A stretch of 64,000 nt of DNA from the NCBI RefSeq assembly GCF_024494725.1, contig NZ_JANHDK010000001.1, positions 682,001-746,000 of the forward strand. Reading direction: 5' to 3'. Of the stretch, positions 18,103 through 40,473 are shown one piece after another (position 1 is the first letter of the stretch; each line of letters opens with the position of its first letter). Position numbers and translations under genes: made by a program. The notes under the pieces were generated by a model that saw nothing but the letters and a program-made list of their open reading frames with translations, did no database searches and had not been told where the DNA came from. The stretch comes from Haloplanus ruber (GTDB lineage Archaea > Halobacteriota > Halobacteria > Halobacteriales > Haloferacaceae).

Positions 18103-19389
18103 TTACTCTCGGTGGAAGTCGACCGAGCGCGTCCCGTCGTCGCGGTGGACCGTCGTCCGTGCCGGCTCCGTTCGCGCCGTCGTGACACCCTCGCGGAGCA
18201 CGAGGCTCCGGGGCGCGCGAGTGCGGAGCGCGTTGAATCCGTCGGGGCTGTCGAAGACGACGAGCGATCCCTCCCCGCCCTCCTGCAGGCCGTAGTCGTC
18301 GACCCCGAACACCGCGGCGTTCGCCGCCGTCAGCATCTCCCACAGTCGGGACACGTCGCTACGGCCGGCCATGTGAGCGTAGTGGAGGAGGACGAACGCG
18401 GCGTCGAGCGGATCGGCCTGTCCGTAGTGATACCACGGGTCGAGCACCGAATCGTGACCCAGGCCGACGGTGACCCCGGCTGCCCGGAGTTCGTCGATAC
18501 GGGTGTGGCCGCGCCGCCGCGGGTAGTCGTCGTAGCTTCCCTGGAGCACCGAGTTGTCTGGGGGGTTCGTCACGACGTCCACGCCGCTCTCGGCGAGCAA
18601 CGAGATCAGTTTGTCCGCGTAGGCGTTGTTGTAGGAGTGCATCGCGGTCGTGTGACTCGCCGTCGTCCGGTCGCCGATACCCCGCTTGAGCGCCTCGCTC
18701 GCCAGCACCTCCGTGAACCGCGAGCCGGGATCGTCCGTCTCGTCGATGTGGAGGTCGAGGGGACGGTCGTGGCGCTCGGCGAGGTCACAGACCGTCCGGA
18801 CGCTCTCGACGCCGTCCTCGCGGGTGTGTTCGTTGTGCGGAATCGCCCCGATCACGTCGACGCCCATCTCGACGGCCTCCCGGAGGAGGTCCTCGTGGCC
18901 TTCGGCGGTGAAGATGCCGTCCTGCGGGAAGGCGACCACCTGCAGGTCGACGAGGTCGGACACTCGGTCGCGCAGTTCGAGCAACGCTTCGACGGTCGTC
19001 AGCGACGGCTCGGTCGTGTCGGCGTGGGTCCGAATCCGCGTCACGCCGTTGGCCGCGTACCACTCGACGGTCCGGGTCGCCCGTTCGACGATGTCCGCGA
19101 CGGTGATGTCCTCCTTGTAGGCCGCCCACACGTCGATTCCCTCGGCGAGCGTCCCGCTCTCGTTCCAAGATGGATCGCCGGCGGTCCCAGTCGCGTCGAG
19201 GTGGACGTGCGGTTCGATCAGCGGCGGCGTCACCAGGCGCCCATCGGCGTCGTGCCGGCGGTCGGATGGGAACGACGACGGATCTCCCTCGCCCGCGGGG
19301 ACGATCCGGTCGATGCGCCCCTCGCGAATCTCGATGTCGATGGCCGTGCCGTCCAGCCGTCGGCCGCCAGTGACGATGTACTCGGACAT
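18103..19389 (-). CDS. codA: Cytosine deaminase-like amidohydrolase
   Basis: A 428-residue TIM-barrel amidohydrolase close to bacterial CodA along its whole length. Metal ligands: His-x-His in EPHVHLDATGTAG (about residue 60), His in LDLHIDETDD with the catalytic Glu two positions on, TASHTTAMHSYNNAY, and the Asp in GLGHDSVLDPWY. CodA converts cytosine to uracil and ammonia for pyrimidine salvage; activity on related amides or triazines cannot be excluded. The start at 19389 gives MSEYIVTGG. No cytosine permease is adjacent. Confidence 0.85.
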   Translation of the reverse strand: MSEYIVTGGRRLDGTAIDIEIREGRIDRIVPAGEGDPSSFPSDRRHDADGRLVTPPLIEPHVHLDATGTAGDPSWNESGTLAEGIDVWAAYKEDITVADIVERATRTVEWYAANGVTRIRTHADTTEPSLTTVEALLELRDRVSDLVDLQVVAFPQDGIFTAEGHEDLLREAVEMGVDVIGAIPHNEHTREDGVESVRTVCDLAERHDRPLDLHIDETDDPGSRFTEVLASEALKRGIGDRTTASHTTAMHSYNNAYADKLISLLAESGVDVVTNPPDNSVLQGSYDDYPRRRGHTRIDELRAAGVTVGLGHDSVLDPWYHYGQADPLDAAFVLLHYAHMAGRSDVSRLWEMLTAANAAVFGVDDYGLQEGGEGSLVVFDSPDGFNALRTRAPRSLVLREGVTTARTEPARTTVHRDDGTRSVDFHRE

Positions 19390-19427
19390 ACCCACGCGTC
19401 GGTCAGCCGGCACATATTCCTTGGCAC

Positions 19428-21212
19428 TCAGGGGTCGCTCGGCTCCGGGTGCGGCCCCTCGACGCCGCGGAACTCGAAGCGGGCGCCGCCGCCCGCGCTC
19501 TCGGCGACCCGCACCGTCCAGCCGTGGGCGTCGGCAATCTCCCGAACGATGGAGAGACCAAAGCCCGTCCCGGCGGGAAGCGACGAGTAGCCATCGTCGA
19601 GGATGCGCTCGCGTCGCTCGACGGGGACGCCGACGCCGTCGTCCTCGACGTAGAACCCGAACTCGCATCGGTCGCCGGCCGCGGACGCGGCGGTCGACGC
19701 GTCGTCGGTCGCTCCCCTGACGAAGTCGTCGAGGATGCCGACGGTGACGGTCAGGGTATCGGGGGCGGTTTCGGTCGCCCCGTCGGCGTCCGGTCGACCG
19801 TCCGTCGAACCGTGTTCGATGCTGTCACCGGACTCTGTCCGGTTGTCCGTGGCGCCATGCTCCACGCTGTCGTCGGACTCTGTCCGACTGCTCGTCGAAC
19901 CGTGTTCGACGCTGTCACCGGACTCTGTCCGGTTGTCCGTGGAGCCATGCTCCACGCTATTCCGAAACAGGTTCTCGACGAGGCGTCGCAGTCGCGCTTC
20001 GTCGGCCCGGACGGCCCGCGAGTCGGCCACCTGGAGTTCGGCGTTCGGAGTCTCGACGTGTCGCCAGCATTCGCGGACAATCTCTCCGAGGTCGAGCGAG
20101 TCGGCGTCGGCCGCTGTCACGGGGCCGCCCTCCCTGGCGAGCGTGAGGAGGTCGTCGATGAGCGCCGACATCCGGTCGTGGGCGCGAGCGACGGCCGCGA
20201 AGTCGTCACCGTCGTGGGTTTCGCGGGCGAGTTCGAGTCGTCCGCGGGCGATGCCGAGCGGGTTGCGGAGGTCGTGTGCGACGATGTCGGCGAACCGCTC
20301 GAGGCGTTCGTTGCGCCGCTGGATCGTCCGCTCGGACTCCAGCCGCGACAGCGCCCCGGCGACGAGTTTGGCAAGGACGCCCGCGGTTTCGAGGTCGGTA
20401 TCGTCGAAGGCACCCGAATTGGGGTCGCCGACGCTCAGGACGCCGTACTCGCCGACGGGGAGGTACATGCCGGCCTGAGCGTCGTCCCGGTCGTTCCCGT
20501 CGGTCGCCGTGGCGAGTTCGTCGTAGAGTAGCGGGTCGCCCGTGCGGTAGACACGCGCGACGGGCGTGTCGCCATCGATCCGGCAGTCCGGGGGCGCGCC
20601 GGCCTCGGCGGCGCCGACGACTGTCCGCAACAGGCCGTCGGCCTCGTCGGCCAGACGGAGCGTGGTGTGTGCGTACCCGAGGATGTGGTTCGCCGCGTCG
20701 GTGGTGATCTGTGCCACCTCCTCGGGTCCCGTCGCGTCCATGAAGTCACGGCTCGCGCCGTGGAGCGTCTCGAAGCGCCGCTGGCGCTCCGTAATCTCTC
20801 GCTCGCGACGCTTCAGATCCGTGATGTCGTGTTGGACCCCGAGGAAGTGGGTGACGGCCCCGTCTGCGTCCGTGAGCGGCGTAACCTCGACGTGATTCCA
20901 GAAGACGCTCCCGTCGCGCCGGTAGTTCCGGAGGACCACCGACGCCGACTCCTCGGAGTCGACGGCGGCCCGGAGTTCCGCGACCCGGTCGGAGTCGGTC
21001 TCCGGACCTTGGAGAAACCGACAGTTCCGGCCGAGGGTCTCGTCTGGCCCGTACCCGGTGAGGCGGTAGAACGCGTCGTTGGCGTAGACGATGGGGTTGT
21101 CCGCCGCCGTTGGATCGGTGATGACGACGCCGAGAGGCAAGGCGTCGAGCGCCCGTCGTCGTACCGGGTCGCTCACGCTGTCGCCCAGTCGCTCGGCATC
21201 ACTCGAAGGCAT
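19428..21212 (-). CDS. LOV/PAS-GAF sensor histidine kinase
   Basis: A 594-residue soluble kinase. Residues about 20-135 form a PAS domain with LOV features: GRNCRFLQ with Cys64, an NYRRDG...FWN segment and FLGVQHDIT. Then a short linker, a GAF domain (about 150-305), HisKA with FADIVAHDLRNPLG and an HATPase domain with DDGVGVP and GTGFGLSI. The ATPase domain is expanded by four 15-residue repeats that begin at the N-box. It probably autophosphorylates on the H-box His; no response regulator is adjacent. The start at 21212 is the only methionine before the PAS domain. Confidence 0.92.
   Translation of the reverse strand: MPSSDAERLGDSVSDPVRRRALDALPLGVVITDPTAADNPIVYANDAFYRLTGYGPDETLGRNCRFLQGPETDSDRVAELRAAVDSEESASVVLRNYRRDGSVFWNHVEVTPLTDADGAVTHFLGVQHDITDLKRREREITERQRRFETLHGASRDFMDATGPEEVAQITTDAANHILGYAHTTLRLADEADGLLRTVVGAAEAGAPPDCRIDGDTPVARVYRTGDPLLYDELATATDGNDRDDAQAGMYLPVGEYGVLSVGDPNSGAFDDTDLETAGVLAKLVAGALSRLESERTIQRRNERLERFADIVAHDLRNPLGIARGRLELARETHDGDDFAAVARAHDRMSALIDDLLTLAREGGPVTAADADSLDLGEIVRECWRHVETPNAELQVADSRAVRADEARLRRLVENLFRNSVEHGSTDNRTESGDSVEHGSTSSRTESDDSVEHGATDNRTESGDSIEHGSTDGRPDADGATETAPDTLTVTVGILDDFVRGATDDASTAASAAGDRCEFGFYVEDDGVGVPVERRERILDDGYSSLPAGTGFGLSIVREIADAHGWTVRVAESAGGGARFEFRGVEGPHPEPSDP
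19779..19958 (-). repeat. Tandem 45-bp repeat inside the kinase ATPase domain (4 units)
   Basis: Four in-frame units of exactly 45 bp (19914-19958, 19869-19913, 19824-19868, 19779-19823) encode near-identical 15-mers of the form SVEHGSTDNRTESGD. The first overlaps the N-box (NSVEHGS) of the HATPase domain. The fourth has diverged at its end (STDGRPDADG). Substitutions are mostly synonymous or conservative. Confidence 0.93.
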
Positions 21213-21303
21213 CCGGTGAACGTGTGCGGAGTCGTCAAATAAGCCTTGGCCCCGAGGCAGCAGAGGGCCACAGATACTTGTCGGCCGCCGCCCAATCCCG
21301 GCC

Positions 21304-22905
21304 ATGTCGGCACGTCGGGGTCGGACGCTGTTTGTCGTCGTATTACTCGTCGTTGCGGGCGTAGCACCCGCGCTCGCAGCGACGGGCGAAACCGACGCCC
21401 TCCCGACCGAACGGTGGCGACCGGCCGCCGACGCGTCCCCGTCGGACGGGACGCTCACACAGCAAGCCGCCACGACGCTCGGGGAACGCATCGTCGCCTC
21501 GCGAAACGACGACCCCGGGAGCGTGACACTCACCTTCGCGTACCGGATTCCGGACGCGGTGTCCGGGCTTCGGGTCGCGGTGCCGGTGCTCTCGCTGTCG
21601 GGCATCACCGTCGAGGGGACCGACGGCTTCGAGCGCGAGGGCGAGACACGATTCCGCTGGGACACCGAAACCGAGCGACCGAGCGTCTCGCTCCGTCTCG
21701 CCGTCGGCGACACGCTCGGCGACGGCGTCCGCGGCGTCGAGCGCGACGGCTGGGCGCTCGTCTCCCAGCCAAACACGCGGATGCAGGTCCGCGCCGACAC
21801 ACAGCCGGTCCGGACGACGACCTTCGGGGTTGCCGACTCGGAGCCCGGGTACGCGAGCAGCCACCTCGCCTACCTCGGCGAACACGAGCGCCGGAACGTG
21901 ACCGCCGCCGACGAGAACGCGACGTTCGTCCTCGGAGCCACGGACGCCAACGCGACGCGGGCGACGACCTTCCTGCGAACCGCGAACGAGCACTTCGACT
22001 TCGGCGTCCGCCACGACCGCATCACGGTGTTCGTCCTCCCTGTTACCGACGAGAGCACCGCGAACGTCGACGCCGCCACCGTCGACACGGCGTTCTGGGT
22101 CGGGGAGTCGGGCCTCCGCCTAGACGAGACGGGGGCGGTGTTCTCCCACGAGTACGTCCACACGCGACTGGGAACGGTCGGCACTCGCGACGCGACGTGG
22201 CTGAACGAAGGGAGCGCGGAGTATTACGGCCACCTGTTCGCCCTCAACGACGGCGTCGGGACCTACGAGTCCTTCCGTGCCGACCTCCAGGCGGACGCGT
22301 ACGCGCCGGACAATCGGTCGGTGGTCCTGAGCGACCCCCAGACGTGGACGGGAACCACCGCCCACTACGACAAAGGCGCACACGTCCTCGCCGCCTTAGA
22401 CGCGGAGATCAGGCGCCGTACCAACGAGGATCGGACGCTCCGTGACGTATTCTCGGGGCGCTCGGAGCCGTTCGCCGACTACCAGGCCTTCCGCGGGGCA
22501 GTAATCGAGGTGGCGGACGACGAGTCGCTGGGGCCGTGGTTGGATCGGTACGTCACCACCGACGCCCTGCCGCCCCTGCCCGATAATCCGCGGTACTACG
22601 TGGCTGCGCCGGAACTCGACCCCGACAGCGATGGGACGGCGAGCGGCGCGGAAGTGGACCGCGGCCAGCACCCGTTCGTTGCGGGCGCGGGGCCGGACGG
22701 CATCGTCGCCACCGAGACGGACCCGACGACGGCGTCGACCACCGCGGCAGAGACTGAGGGCGAGAACACGGGAACCGAAAGTGAAGAGGAGACGGGGACG
22801 GCTCGCACCAATACGGAGGGGTCGGCACCCGGGTTCGGTGTGGGCGCAGGTGTCGCTGCCGTGGCACTTCTGGTGTGTGGCGCGCTGTGCCGACGGCGGG
22901 AGTGA
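21304..22905 (+). CDS. PGF-CTERM surface protein with gluzincin protease domain
   Basis: A 533-residue secreted protein. The signal peptide spans about residues 1-25 (ending APALAA). A beta-rich region with several potential N-glycosylation sites (NVT, NAT) leads to a zinc metalloprotease core: HEYVH (about residue 280) with the third ligand Glu in NEGSAEYYG about 22 residues later, the gluzincin pattern of M1/M61 aminopeptidases. A Thr/Glu-rich linker ends in APGFGVGAGVAAVALLV and RRRE, a PGF-CTERM-type anchor. Probably an extracellular membrane-anchored peptidase; substrates unknown. Confidence 0.87.
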   Translation: MSARRGRTLFVVVLLVVAGVAPALAATGETDALPTERWRPAADASPSDGTLTQQAATTLGERIVASRNDDPGSVTLTFAYRIPDAVSGLRVAVPVLSLSGITVEGTDGFEREGETRFRWDTETERPSVSLRLAVGDTLGDGVRGVERDGWALVSQPNTRMQVRADTQPVRTTTFGVADSEPGYASSHLAYLGEHERRNVTAADENATFVLGATDANATRATTFLRTANEHFDFGVRHDRITVFVLPVTDESTANVDAATVDTAFWVGESGLRLDETGAVFSHEYVHTRLGTVGTRDATWLNEGSAEYYGHLFALNDGVGTYESFRADLQADAYAPDNRSVVLSDPQTWTGTTAHYDKGAHVLAALDAEIRRRTNEDRTLRDVFSGRSEPFADYQAFRGAVIEVADDESLGPWLDRYVTTDALPPLPDNPRYYVAAPELDPDSDGTASGAEVDRGQHPFVAGAGPDGIVATETDPTTASTTAAETEGENTGTESEEETGTARTNTEGSAPGFGVGAGVAAVALLVCGALCRRRE

Positions 22906-40170: not shown

Positions 40171-40473
40171 ATGGAATACGAGATTGGGGCGGACGAAGCG
40201 GTGAGCACGGTGGTGGTGCGTGCGGTGAGCGCCGTCGAAGGCCGTGATCCGCTGTCGCTCCGACCGCTCGTCGAGATACTCGACCCCGATGCGTTGGACG
40301 CGCTGTTCGGGGCACGGACCGACGGCACCCCCCGGCCGGGTGGCCGCCTCACGTTCGTTTACGGCAAGTGCCGGGTCACGGTCGATAACGGTGAGTACCT
40401 CACGCTACACCCTATCGACTCCCGGAGCCGCAACGAACGCGGCCCCGGAGCCACCGAGGGATCAAACCGCTGA
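40171..40473 (+). CDS. HalOD1 output domain protein
   Basis: A 100-residue protein that matches the HalOD1 domain over its whole length: VSTVVVRAVSAVEGRDP, LVEILDPDALDALF, then GGRLTFVYGKCRVTVDNGEYLTL. This haloarchaea-specific domain occurs alone or at the C-terminus of signalling proteins; its biochemical role is unknown. ATG at 40171; a TTTGATAATCC stretch is 50 bp upstream. Confidence 0.83.
   Translation: MEYEIGADEAVSTVVVRAVSAVEGRDPLSLRPLVEILDPDALDALFGARTDGTPRPGGRLTFVYGKCRVTVDNGEYLTLHPIDSRSRNERGPGATEGSNR

Follow-up and report, generated by a model that had tools for sequence, protein, structure and literature searches.

The minus-strand gene at 19428-21212 raises the question of what kind of sensor it encodes and why part of its catalytic region is written in nearly perfect DNA palindromes. 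It lies in the window analysed in this study, a 64-kb stretch of DNA (C1:682001-746000 of the 3.28-Mb source genome; 65-70% G+C). The G+C content, the acidic proteins, and shared features in named haloarchaeal records suggest that the class of the genome is the haloarchaea. The reading that we favour, with a probability of roughly three in four, is that the gene encodes a LOV-GAF kinase in which a mobile palindromic element, translated in frame, has settled at the N-box.

The first-pass annotation had described this ORF as a histidine kinase with a complete LOV photoreceptor signature, and both parts of this description hold. Translation and Pfam analysis confirmed a histidine kinase of 594 aa, in which PAS (residues 28-132), GAF (161-288), HisKA (304-361), and HATPase_c (517-582) each match a Pfam model above the curated cut-off. 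The H, N, D/G1, and G2 motifs are intact, with H313, N418, D524, G548, G550, and G552 invariant among 15 aligned kinases. The three segments previously pointed out (GRNCRFLQ, LRNYRRDG..FWN, and FLGVQHDIT) are all present in the translation, and the cysteine of the signature is indeed C64, encoded by TGT at 21021-21023. The seven positions that we take, by reference to AsLOV2, to make up the flavin pocket (Asn, Cys, Arg, Gln, Asn, Asn, and Gln) are canonical at 7/7 (N39, C64, R65, Q68, N96, N106, and Q127). An eighth, Phe494 of AsLOV2, corresponds to Val108 of this kinase, in a column occupied by Leu or Phe in four aligned PDB LOV sequences.

Comparison of residues 1-132 with PDB by phmmer gave 152 distinct sequences at E<=1e-3. 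The best 60 of these 152 are, by deposited name, largely phototropins, aureochromes, LOV kinases, and LOV2 fusions, with a few named just as sensor proteins, and the top match is the histidine kinase 9vf7 (E=2.5e-35). Structure prediction had been suggested as a check, and in the resulting AlphaFold model (mean pLDDT 72.7, about 90 in the LOV part) the LOV region superposes on solved LOV structures, with Foldseek rmsd of 1.0 over 130 columns for the LOV domain of 9vf7 and 0.6 for Brucella LOV-HK 3t50. All nine top-ranked structures belong to blue-light or LOV kinases, most of them as chimeras or full-length constructs. The LOV assignment thus holds by sequence, pocket residues, and fold, and the agreement with the LOV signature is far above chance. 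The accessible text of PMC12202551 describes 28 archaeal LOV sequences from one lake, so that archaeal LOV-HKs are already known, and one archaeal LOV domain with a demonstrated photocycle at up to 3 M salt. Since the assignment holds in all three respects, the kinase is a predicted blue-light sensor and blue-light sensing is likely. By ORF reading alone, no neighbouring gene in the window points to light. As a finding, this LOV kinase is sound but ordinary, of a known kind, and not new.

The kinase is matched at E<=1e-90 in 4/12 genomes of the genus, the source genome included. Two of the three orthologs (L063 and L064) keep all seven pocket positions, and the third (L065 in genome G391, 70% identical) reads A, Y, R, R, H, D, and H at these positions. 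Because six of the seven pocket residues, the Cys among them, are gone from L065, the predicted light role would not be conserved even within the genus. L065 keeps its kinase motifs despite the pocket loss, which makes it a natural loss of predicted light sensing. Among 20 kinase-like loci of the source genome, four further Cys-bearing LOV-like domains (L007, L010, L011, and L013) keep 6, 7, 6, and 6 of the seven positions, respectively. A LOV-like domain at G000:C3:431000-434000 has His for the adduct Cys and Asp for Asn39, and keeps the other five positions. A search for named LOV relatives gave 11 loci, all bacterial by title.

Overlooked by the first-pass annotation, the same gene contains a 45-bp tandem repeat (3.5 copies at 19800-19958 by TRF), which proved to be an array of four tandem units (19782-19955, minus strand) beginning in the N-box. 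The array codes NSVEHGSTDNRTESG-DSVEHGSTSSRTESD-DSVEHGATDNRTESG-DSIEHGSTDGRPDAD, with a unit peptide of the type SVEHGST..SRTESDD, and in the AlphaFold model residues 424-483 form a disordered loop that links the N-box helix to the strand following it. Each unit contains two hairpins, both with a stem of 7 bp and a loop of 3 nt, in steps of 22 and 23 nt: hairpin 1 (7+3), a 5-nt spacer (often GRGCA), hairpin 2 (7+3), and a closing hexamer, for example GACAGC or GACGGC (Table 1). Units 1 and 2 are perfect with different stem letters, and units 3 and 4 have 13/14 and 11/14 pairs.

Table 1. Features of the LOV-GAF kinase gene and its hairpin array (window positions; scores from R1, a covariance model of the 45-bp two-hairpin element)
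Feature	Position	Strand	Basis or score
LOV-GAF-HisKA-HATPase histidine kinase, 594 aa	19428..21212	-	translation, Pfam, orthologs L063/L064/L065
LOV domain, residues 14-135	20808..21173	-	Pfam, phmmer, AlphaFold (pLDDT about 90), Foldseek
C64 codon (TGT), predicted adduct Cys	21021..21023	-	translation, pocket-residue check
GAF domain, residues 161-288	20349..20732	-	Pfam
HisKA, residues 304-361, including H313	20130..20303	-	Pfam; H313 invariant in 15 kinases
N-box helix, residues 405-423, including N418	19944..20000	-	kinase alignment, AlphaFold
Disordered stretch, residues 424-483, nearly all array-coded	19764..19943	-	AlphaFold, pLDDT <50
HATPase_c G1/G2 part, residues 517-582	19467..19664	-	Pfam, kinase alignment
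Unit 1	19917..19955	-	57.6 bits
Unit 1 hairpin 1, GTGGAGC-ATG-GCTCCAC	19939-19955	-	
Unit 1 hairpin 2, ACCGGAC-AGA-GTCCGGT	19917-19933	-	
Unit 2, GTCGAAC-ACG-GTTCGAC and GTCGGAC-AGA-GTCCGAC	19872..19910	-	62.7 bits
Unit 3, GTGGAGC-ATG-GCGCCAC (one mismatch) and ACCGGAC-AGA-GTCCGGT	19827..19865	-	47.6 bits
Unit 4, decayed, 6/7 and 5/7 pairs	19782..19820	-	43.0 bits

In total, the array forms 52 of 56 possible pairs. A synonymous-codon null, in which the same peptide was written with random codons according to the usage of three window genes, gave a mean of 35.9 and a maximum of 47, and 0/20000 draws reached the observed value. Over the full window, perfect hairpins of this format show no excess (18 versus 14.2 expected), and 5 of the 18 lie inside the array. 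The array strand folds far better than shuffled sequences, with z of -7.07 as DNA and -7.01 as RNA, and no Rfam family lies on the array, the best match in 19000-21500 (E 0.29) being off the array.

We then looked at how the stem letters vary among related arrays. A tandem pattern in which part of EHG[ST]T is fixed twice, 45 bp apart, with the other stem positions left free, was found in 66/391 genomes of the class (27/86 genera), with 0 matches in the reversed control. From the list of pattern matches, loci were picked by hand for covariation. Among the 101 pattern-bearing loci fetched, of which two (L062 and L066) repeat places of the source genome, 98 show adjoining kinase homology, and two more (L028 and L086) are kinases by their N-box. 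The last, L067 on a viral contig (IMG/VR), was rejected as a chance match; its unit has a stop, and no ORF of at least 150 aa carries the motif. The 137 matches in 99 loci gave 121 distinct units, a set that leaves out L062, L066, L131, L051-L061, and N-bearing units and includes the stop-bearing unit of L067.

Eight free and variable pairs are complementary in 107 to 116 of these 121 units, where independence predicts 44 to 111, and 0/1000 permutations reach the observed value at any of the eight, in statistics that ignore the kinship of units. The clearest numbers come from pair 28/34, Watson-Crick in 112/121 versus 44 expected with four pair types, and from the synonymous wobble pairs 3/15 (110/121 versus 57.8) and 6/12 (107/121 versus 60.3); the last of the nine free pairs, 25/37, is almost invariant and uninformative. 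Covariation in hairpin 1 is synonymous, involving the third bases of Val against Ser and Glu against Gly, and that in hairpin 2 often changes amino acids in linked fashion (N..G, S..D, T..S, and P..A). The picture was unchanged with one unit per genome (30 genomes). Furthermore, in 53 diversity-picked units 94.7% of cells are paired, with 120 double-change cells versus 44.7 (0/500), and slid controls fail. Because stem partners covary, partly synonymously, it is the DNA palindrome rather than the peptide that is conserved, albeit among units that share descent and with statistics that ignore this kinship.

These results bear on the possibility that the array is a protein-level tandem repeat, that is, a disordered acidic linker expanded by slippage, with hairpins as a by-product of peptide and codon bias. 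Such a repeat would agree with the predicted disorder of the segment, with the variation in unit number among orthologs, and with the near confinement of the tandem pattern to kinases. However, partners that covary at synonymous sites and through linked amino-acid changes, the synonymous null, and the occurrence of the same element in unrelated enzymes (see below) argue strongly against it, and we consider it highly improbable.

A second alternative is selection on mRNA structure, for regulation, stability, or translation pausing. The folding of the RNA far better than shuffles and the nearly perfect state of the hairpins fit this idea. Moreover, of 128 distinct pairs of adjacent units, 79 have neither free letter of hairpin 1 in common, compared with 37.8 after shuffling (0/5000), and such differences would prevent mispairing. 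RNA should tolerate G.U, yet G.T is not favoured among the non-pairs of the coding strand, which comprise 14 G.T, 21 A.C, and 14 others in hairpin 2 and 2 G.T, 11 A.C, and 10 others in the two free pairs of hairpin 1 (stop-bearing L067 unit excluded). These counts point to pairing at the DNA level, though an A.C here equals a G.T on the opposite strand. As the element also sits in many unrelated host genes and the array has no Rfam family, an mRNA role is unlikely to be the explanation. Within arrays, adjacent units alternate between two stem types, as if identical neighbours were lost.

The element is not confined to kinases. In the source genome, R1 matches 50 places at E<=1, and the majority of the matches at E<=1e-3 belong to ten kinase loci. 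Single non-kinase copies are found there in a Lon-like protease (L159, by reading), a DUF7097 protein (L155), and a DR2241/Fer4_23 protein (L158), and a further one in a halocyanin-like protein (L162) by reading only; the counterpart of the Lon-like protein in genome G280 (L240) has LonB domains according to Pfam. A copy at C1:26827 (E 9e-7) is not clearly genic and was excluded from coding claims, and the window itself has a weak, short match at 40254-40284 on the minus strand (E 0.0013). Every one of the 12 genus genomes is matched at this threshold (E<=1e-3), with 4 to 37 hits per genome. Sixty loci were hand-picked among the matches listed, covering six genomes plus one hit from a seventh. 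By a simple rule, 28 of them lie in ORFs with kinase motifs and 32 elsewhere, although among the latter at least L222 looks like a kinase when read by eye, and in L217 and L228, which are kinases too, the element occupies a PAS loop.

The element is read in one frame in kinases and in the domain-tested genes. In kinases, this is the kinase frame in 138/140 matches. A Pfam scan covered 20 of 27 element-bearing ORF loci, and in 9/20 ORFs a Pfam match surrounds the element and runs on in frame to either side of it. The interrupted domains are metallophosphatase, MFS, pyridine nucleotide reductase, DHHA1 (RecJ-like), HVO_0234 propeller, TP_methylase, DapB, DUF7097, and Fer4_23; in the remaining 11 ORFs the element falls between two domains, next to one, or away from any, or the scan gave no domain. 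A rough estimate of the frame pointed to a different one in 13/60 genus loci, of which five are in tnpB-linked ends, two (L193 and L195) are in frame by Pfam, and the other six are L206, L208, L220, L221, L242, and L244. Since the non-kinase copies were found with a structure model, their pairing is partly selected.

Named plasmid records found by blastn (H6 and H15 left out; H9 and H14 being second hits at the places of H2 and H4) gave the same result, with the element in phase 0 of the deposited gene in 7/7 records tested. These genes are ppsA of Haloterrigena salifodinae (at aa 314) and merA of Natrinema zhouii (at aa 126), both with the element inside a Pfam domain, and those for a P-type ATPase of Halomarina sp. 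BCD28, an alkaline-phosphatase-family protein of Halolamina sp. CBA1230, a GH2 protein of Halocatena salina, a kinase of archaeon DL31, and a CNNM/CBS protein of Natrinema sp. SYSU A 869. Three others of these seven genes were also scanned with Pfam, and in them the element does not fall inside a domain. N-box units also occur in two more annotated kinases (L132 and L133), and intergenic copies in two further named plasmid records (L330 and L331).

Two kinds of variant were seen along the way. Odd-length units (SPRSQAPED and TPRSNTRGD) adjoin 45-bp units in L065, L216, L222, and L192. A second 45-bp two-hairpin subfamily, with 8-bp and 6-bp stems, codes EGSEIPREAGKAGDG and is laid out as GAGGGATC-GGA-GATCCCTC, a spacer, and GCCGGC-AAA-GCCGGC. 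It has eight matches among the fetched loci (L063/L165, which are one place, L186, L204, L233, L234, L240, and L249), and in L249 it is apparently joined or nested with the first subfamily.

Filled and empty states of a single site are seen at a RecJ-like gene, orthologs of which are present in 12/12 genus genomes with the insertion site readable in 11 (12 of 13 RecJ-like loci were read, with L261 left out). The site is filled in G172 (FASVEPRSTESRPEADDEGEVKVS), holds what reads as a decayed copy in G134 (AGPRSTGRRAEADGGDDGGDDDGDGE), and is empty in G239, G391, and G394 (FSAAGDDEVKVS, FAAAGDDEVKVS, and FAATEEGEVKVS). The tally over the 11 genomes is thus 1 filled, 1 decayed, 3 empty, and 6 with short ambiguous loops (source genome included), so at this orthologous site some genomes have the element and others do not. 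In DUF7097 there is one copy in the source genome, and there are two in G239. The element showed no clear target-site duplication.

The occurrence of similar units in ten kinase loci of the source genome (E<=1e-3) could suggest that the element spread solely between paralogous kinases, by gene conversion or shuffling. Against this idea stand single copies in genes without homology to each other and, in the one case tested, empty orthologous sites, and for the non-kinase copies it is contradicted. We therefore regard it as very unlikely as the sole route, although kinase-to-kinase copying could partly be gene conversion.

At E<=1e-5, R1 matches were found in 64/116 genomes of the class (27/46 genera) and in 14/148 genomes of the phylum, all 14 in the haloarchaeal order. 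Taking 24 of the 148 as belonging to that order by list order, 124 non-haloarchaeal genomes of the phylum are without a match.

The relation to insertion sequences needs separate consideration. Five copies lie behind one tnpB type (L229, L231, and L237-L239), four of them 58 bp past the ORF and the fifth behind a broken tnpB. Together with matches to sot0042, a tnpB sense-overlapping RNA, at L238 and at L330 (one of the two intergenic named copies), all below the gathering score, and with the 52-bp PATEs of near-terminal palindromes described for Haloquadratum in the available part of PMC3119063, these copies would suit a terminal-only IS605/PATE remnant mobilised by IS200/IS605 TnpA. On the other hand, 0/28 other tnpB loci (30 minus L274 and L285) carry the element at E<0.01. 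A related tnpB end, L284, is without it by eye, so that the element at the tnpB end looks like an insert. Y1_Tnp is absent from three copy-bearing genomes with 13, 7, and 4 hits, the 4-hit genome being 79% complete. Across 30 Y1_Tnp loci there were only ten weak R1 matches in eight loci (best E 0.0015). Four of these matches (L301, L299, L310, and L319) were aligned, and none contains a full two-hairpin unit; L301 and L299 have 12-nt loops, L310 has a longer loop, and L319 is a single hairpin. The L301 match falls inside the tnpB coding sequence. These comparisons link no transposase to the element. An IS605 terminus as origin is thus mostly rejected on account of the 28 other tnpB loci and the related end, and from these together with the genomes that have no Y1_Tnp, we see the IS copies as carriers rather than the source. 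The remnant explanation keeps some plausibility, though we rate it as rather improbable.

How might a mobile coding element have come to occupy the N-box? It would spread as DNA, in the form of a single-stranded hairpin or cruciform, and it would survive inside genes because its insertion means no more than 15 additional open codons, read as a flexible loop. In seven unit-free kinases the N-box palindrome is poor (1, 2, or 4 of 7 pairs), and two of them already read VEHG and two more VEH at the N-box, so native codons could supply the left arm. The N-box may thus be a hotspot in which native VEHG-type codons (GTSGARCAYGG) match the left arm of hairpin 1, and insertion would for that reason restore the N-box. 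Unequal pairing would then multiply the 45-bp unit there, and hairpins would be kept perfect via selection for a mobile structure or hairpin-templated mismatch correction. In the present gene, the N-box helix would as a result be followed by a disordered loop of 60 residues, while the predicted LOV sensing and the catalytic motifs would otherwise be left intact.

A bolder version would be an active class of mobile DNA, made of translated 45-bp two-hairpin units that insert in frame into loops of core enzymes, have the N-box as home, and keep their palindromes by hairpin-templated repair. If so, DNA structure dictates amino-acid pairs, and many sensor kinases could be adjusted together through the length of the array that follows their N-box. 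We offer this version tentatively and would sooner doubt it than accept it. Amino acids dictated by DNA base pairing would provide a clean natural test between hairpin-templated mutation and selection for structure. If the reading that we favour is right, it is also likely that the SVEHGSTxSR repeats of haloarchaeal kinases are DNA parasites rather than evolved domains, and the hairpin-coded insert should be kept in mind in construct or structure work on the LOV kinase.

As a photoreceptor, the kinase resembles Brucella LOV-HK, Meiothermus Mrub_1259, and Lake Diamante ALovD-1 in its LOV fold, its Cys in a GXNCRFLQ-type motif, and its kinase output. Unlike these, it has the order LOV-GAF-HK and a hairpin-coded 60-aa insert after the N-box, and one of its orthologs has lost the LOV pocket.

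We found no report of the 45-bp element in the literature searched, subscription papers being outside its scope, and it has apparently not been described before. Its relation to known elements can be judged from published descriptions, in so far as the accessible portions of the cited papers give them. Haloquadratum PATEs (PMC3119063) are likewise haloarchaeal, transposase-free, short, and palindromic, and have a 52-bp terminal-only form; unlike the present element, they have no in-frame coding use in the accessible description, and 28 other tnpB loci are without the present element. PARCEL repeats (PMC2996958), compared by description, share a palindromic coding repeat, tandem arrays, and horizontal scatter, and were at that time reported in no archaeal genome, as far as the accessible text goes. 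The closest likeness is to the Rickettsia palindromic elements (RPEs) and intragenic REPs, known in-frame palindromic elements (PMC3733652, PMC10969869), which, as described in the accessible parts, are also short palindromic DNA lying in frame inside many unrelated protein genes. In those parts, RPEs are given as about 150 bp (PMC10969869), bacterial phyla alone are named for intragenic REPs, and no dedicated transposase was found for the CGTC-tagged type, including RPE-4 and RPE-6 (PMC3733652). Compared with RPEs by these partial descriptions, the present element differs in being haloarchaeal, in its 45-bp two-hairpin unit with variable yet covarying stem letters, and in forming tandem arrays with a strong hotspot at the kinase N-box. 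If our reading is right, archaea have in-frame palindromic mobile elements of their own, comparable to those known from Rickettsia and other bacteria, and such elements add peptide to core enzymes and sensor kinases. The best reading is that the element is a haloarchaeal counterpart of the Rickettsia palindromic elements, with the N-box as its hotspot.
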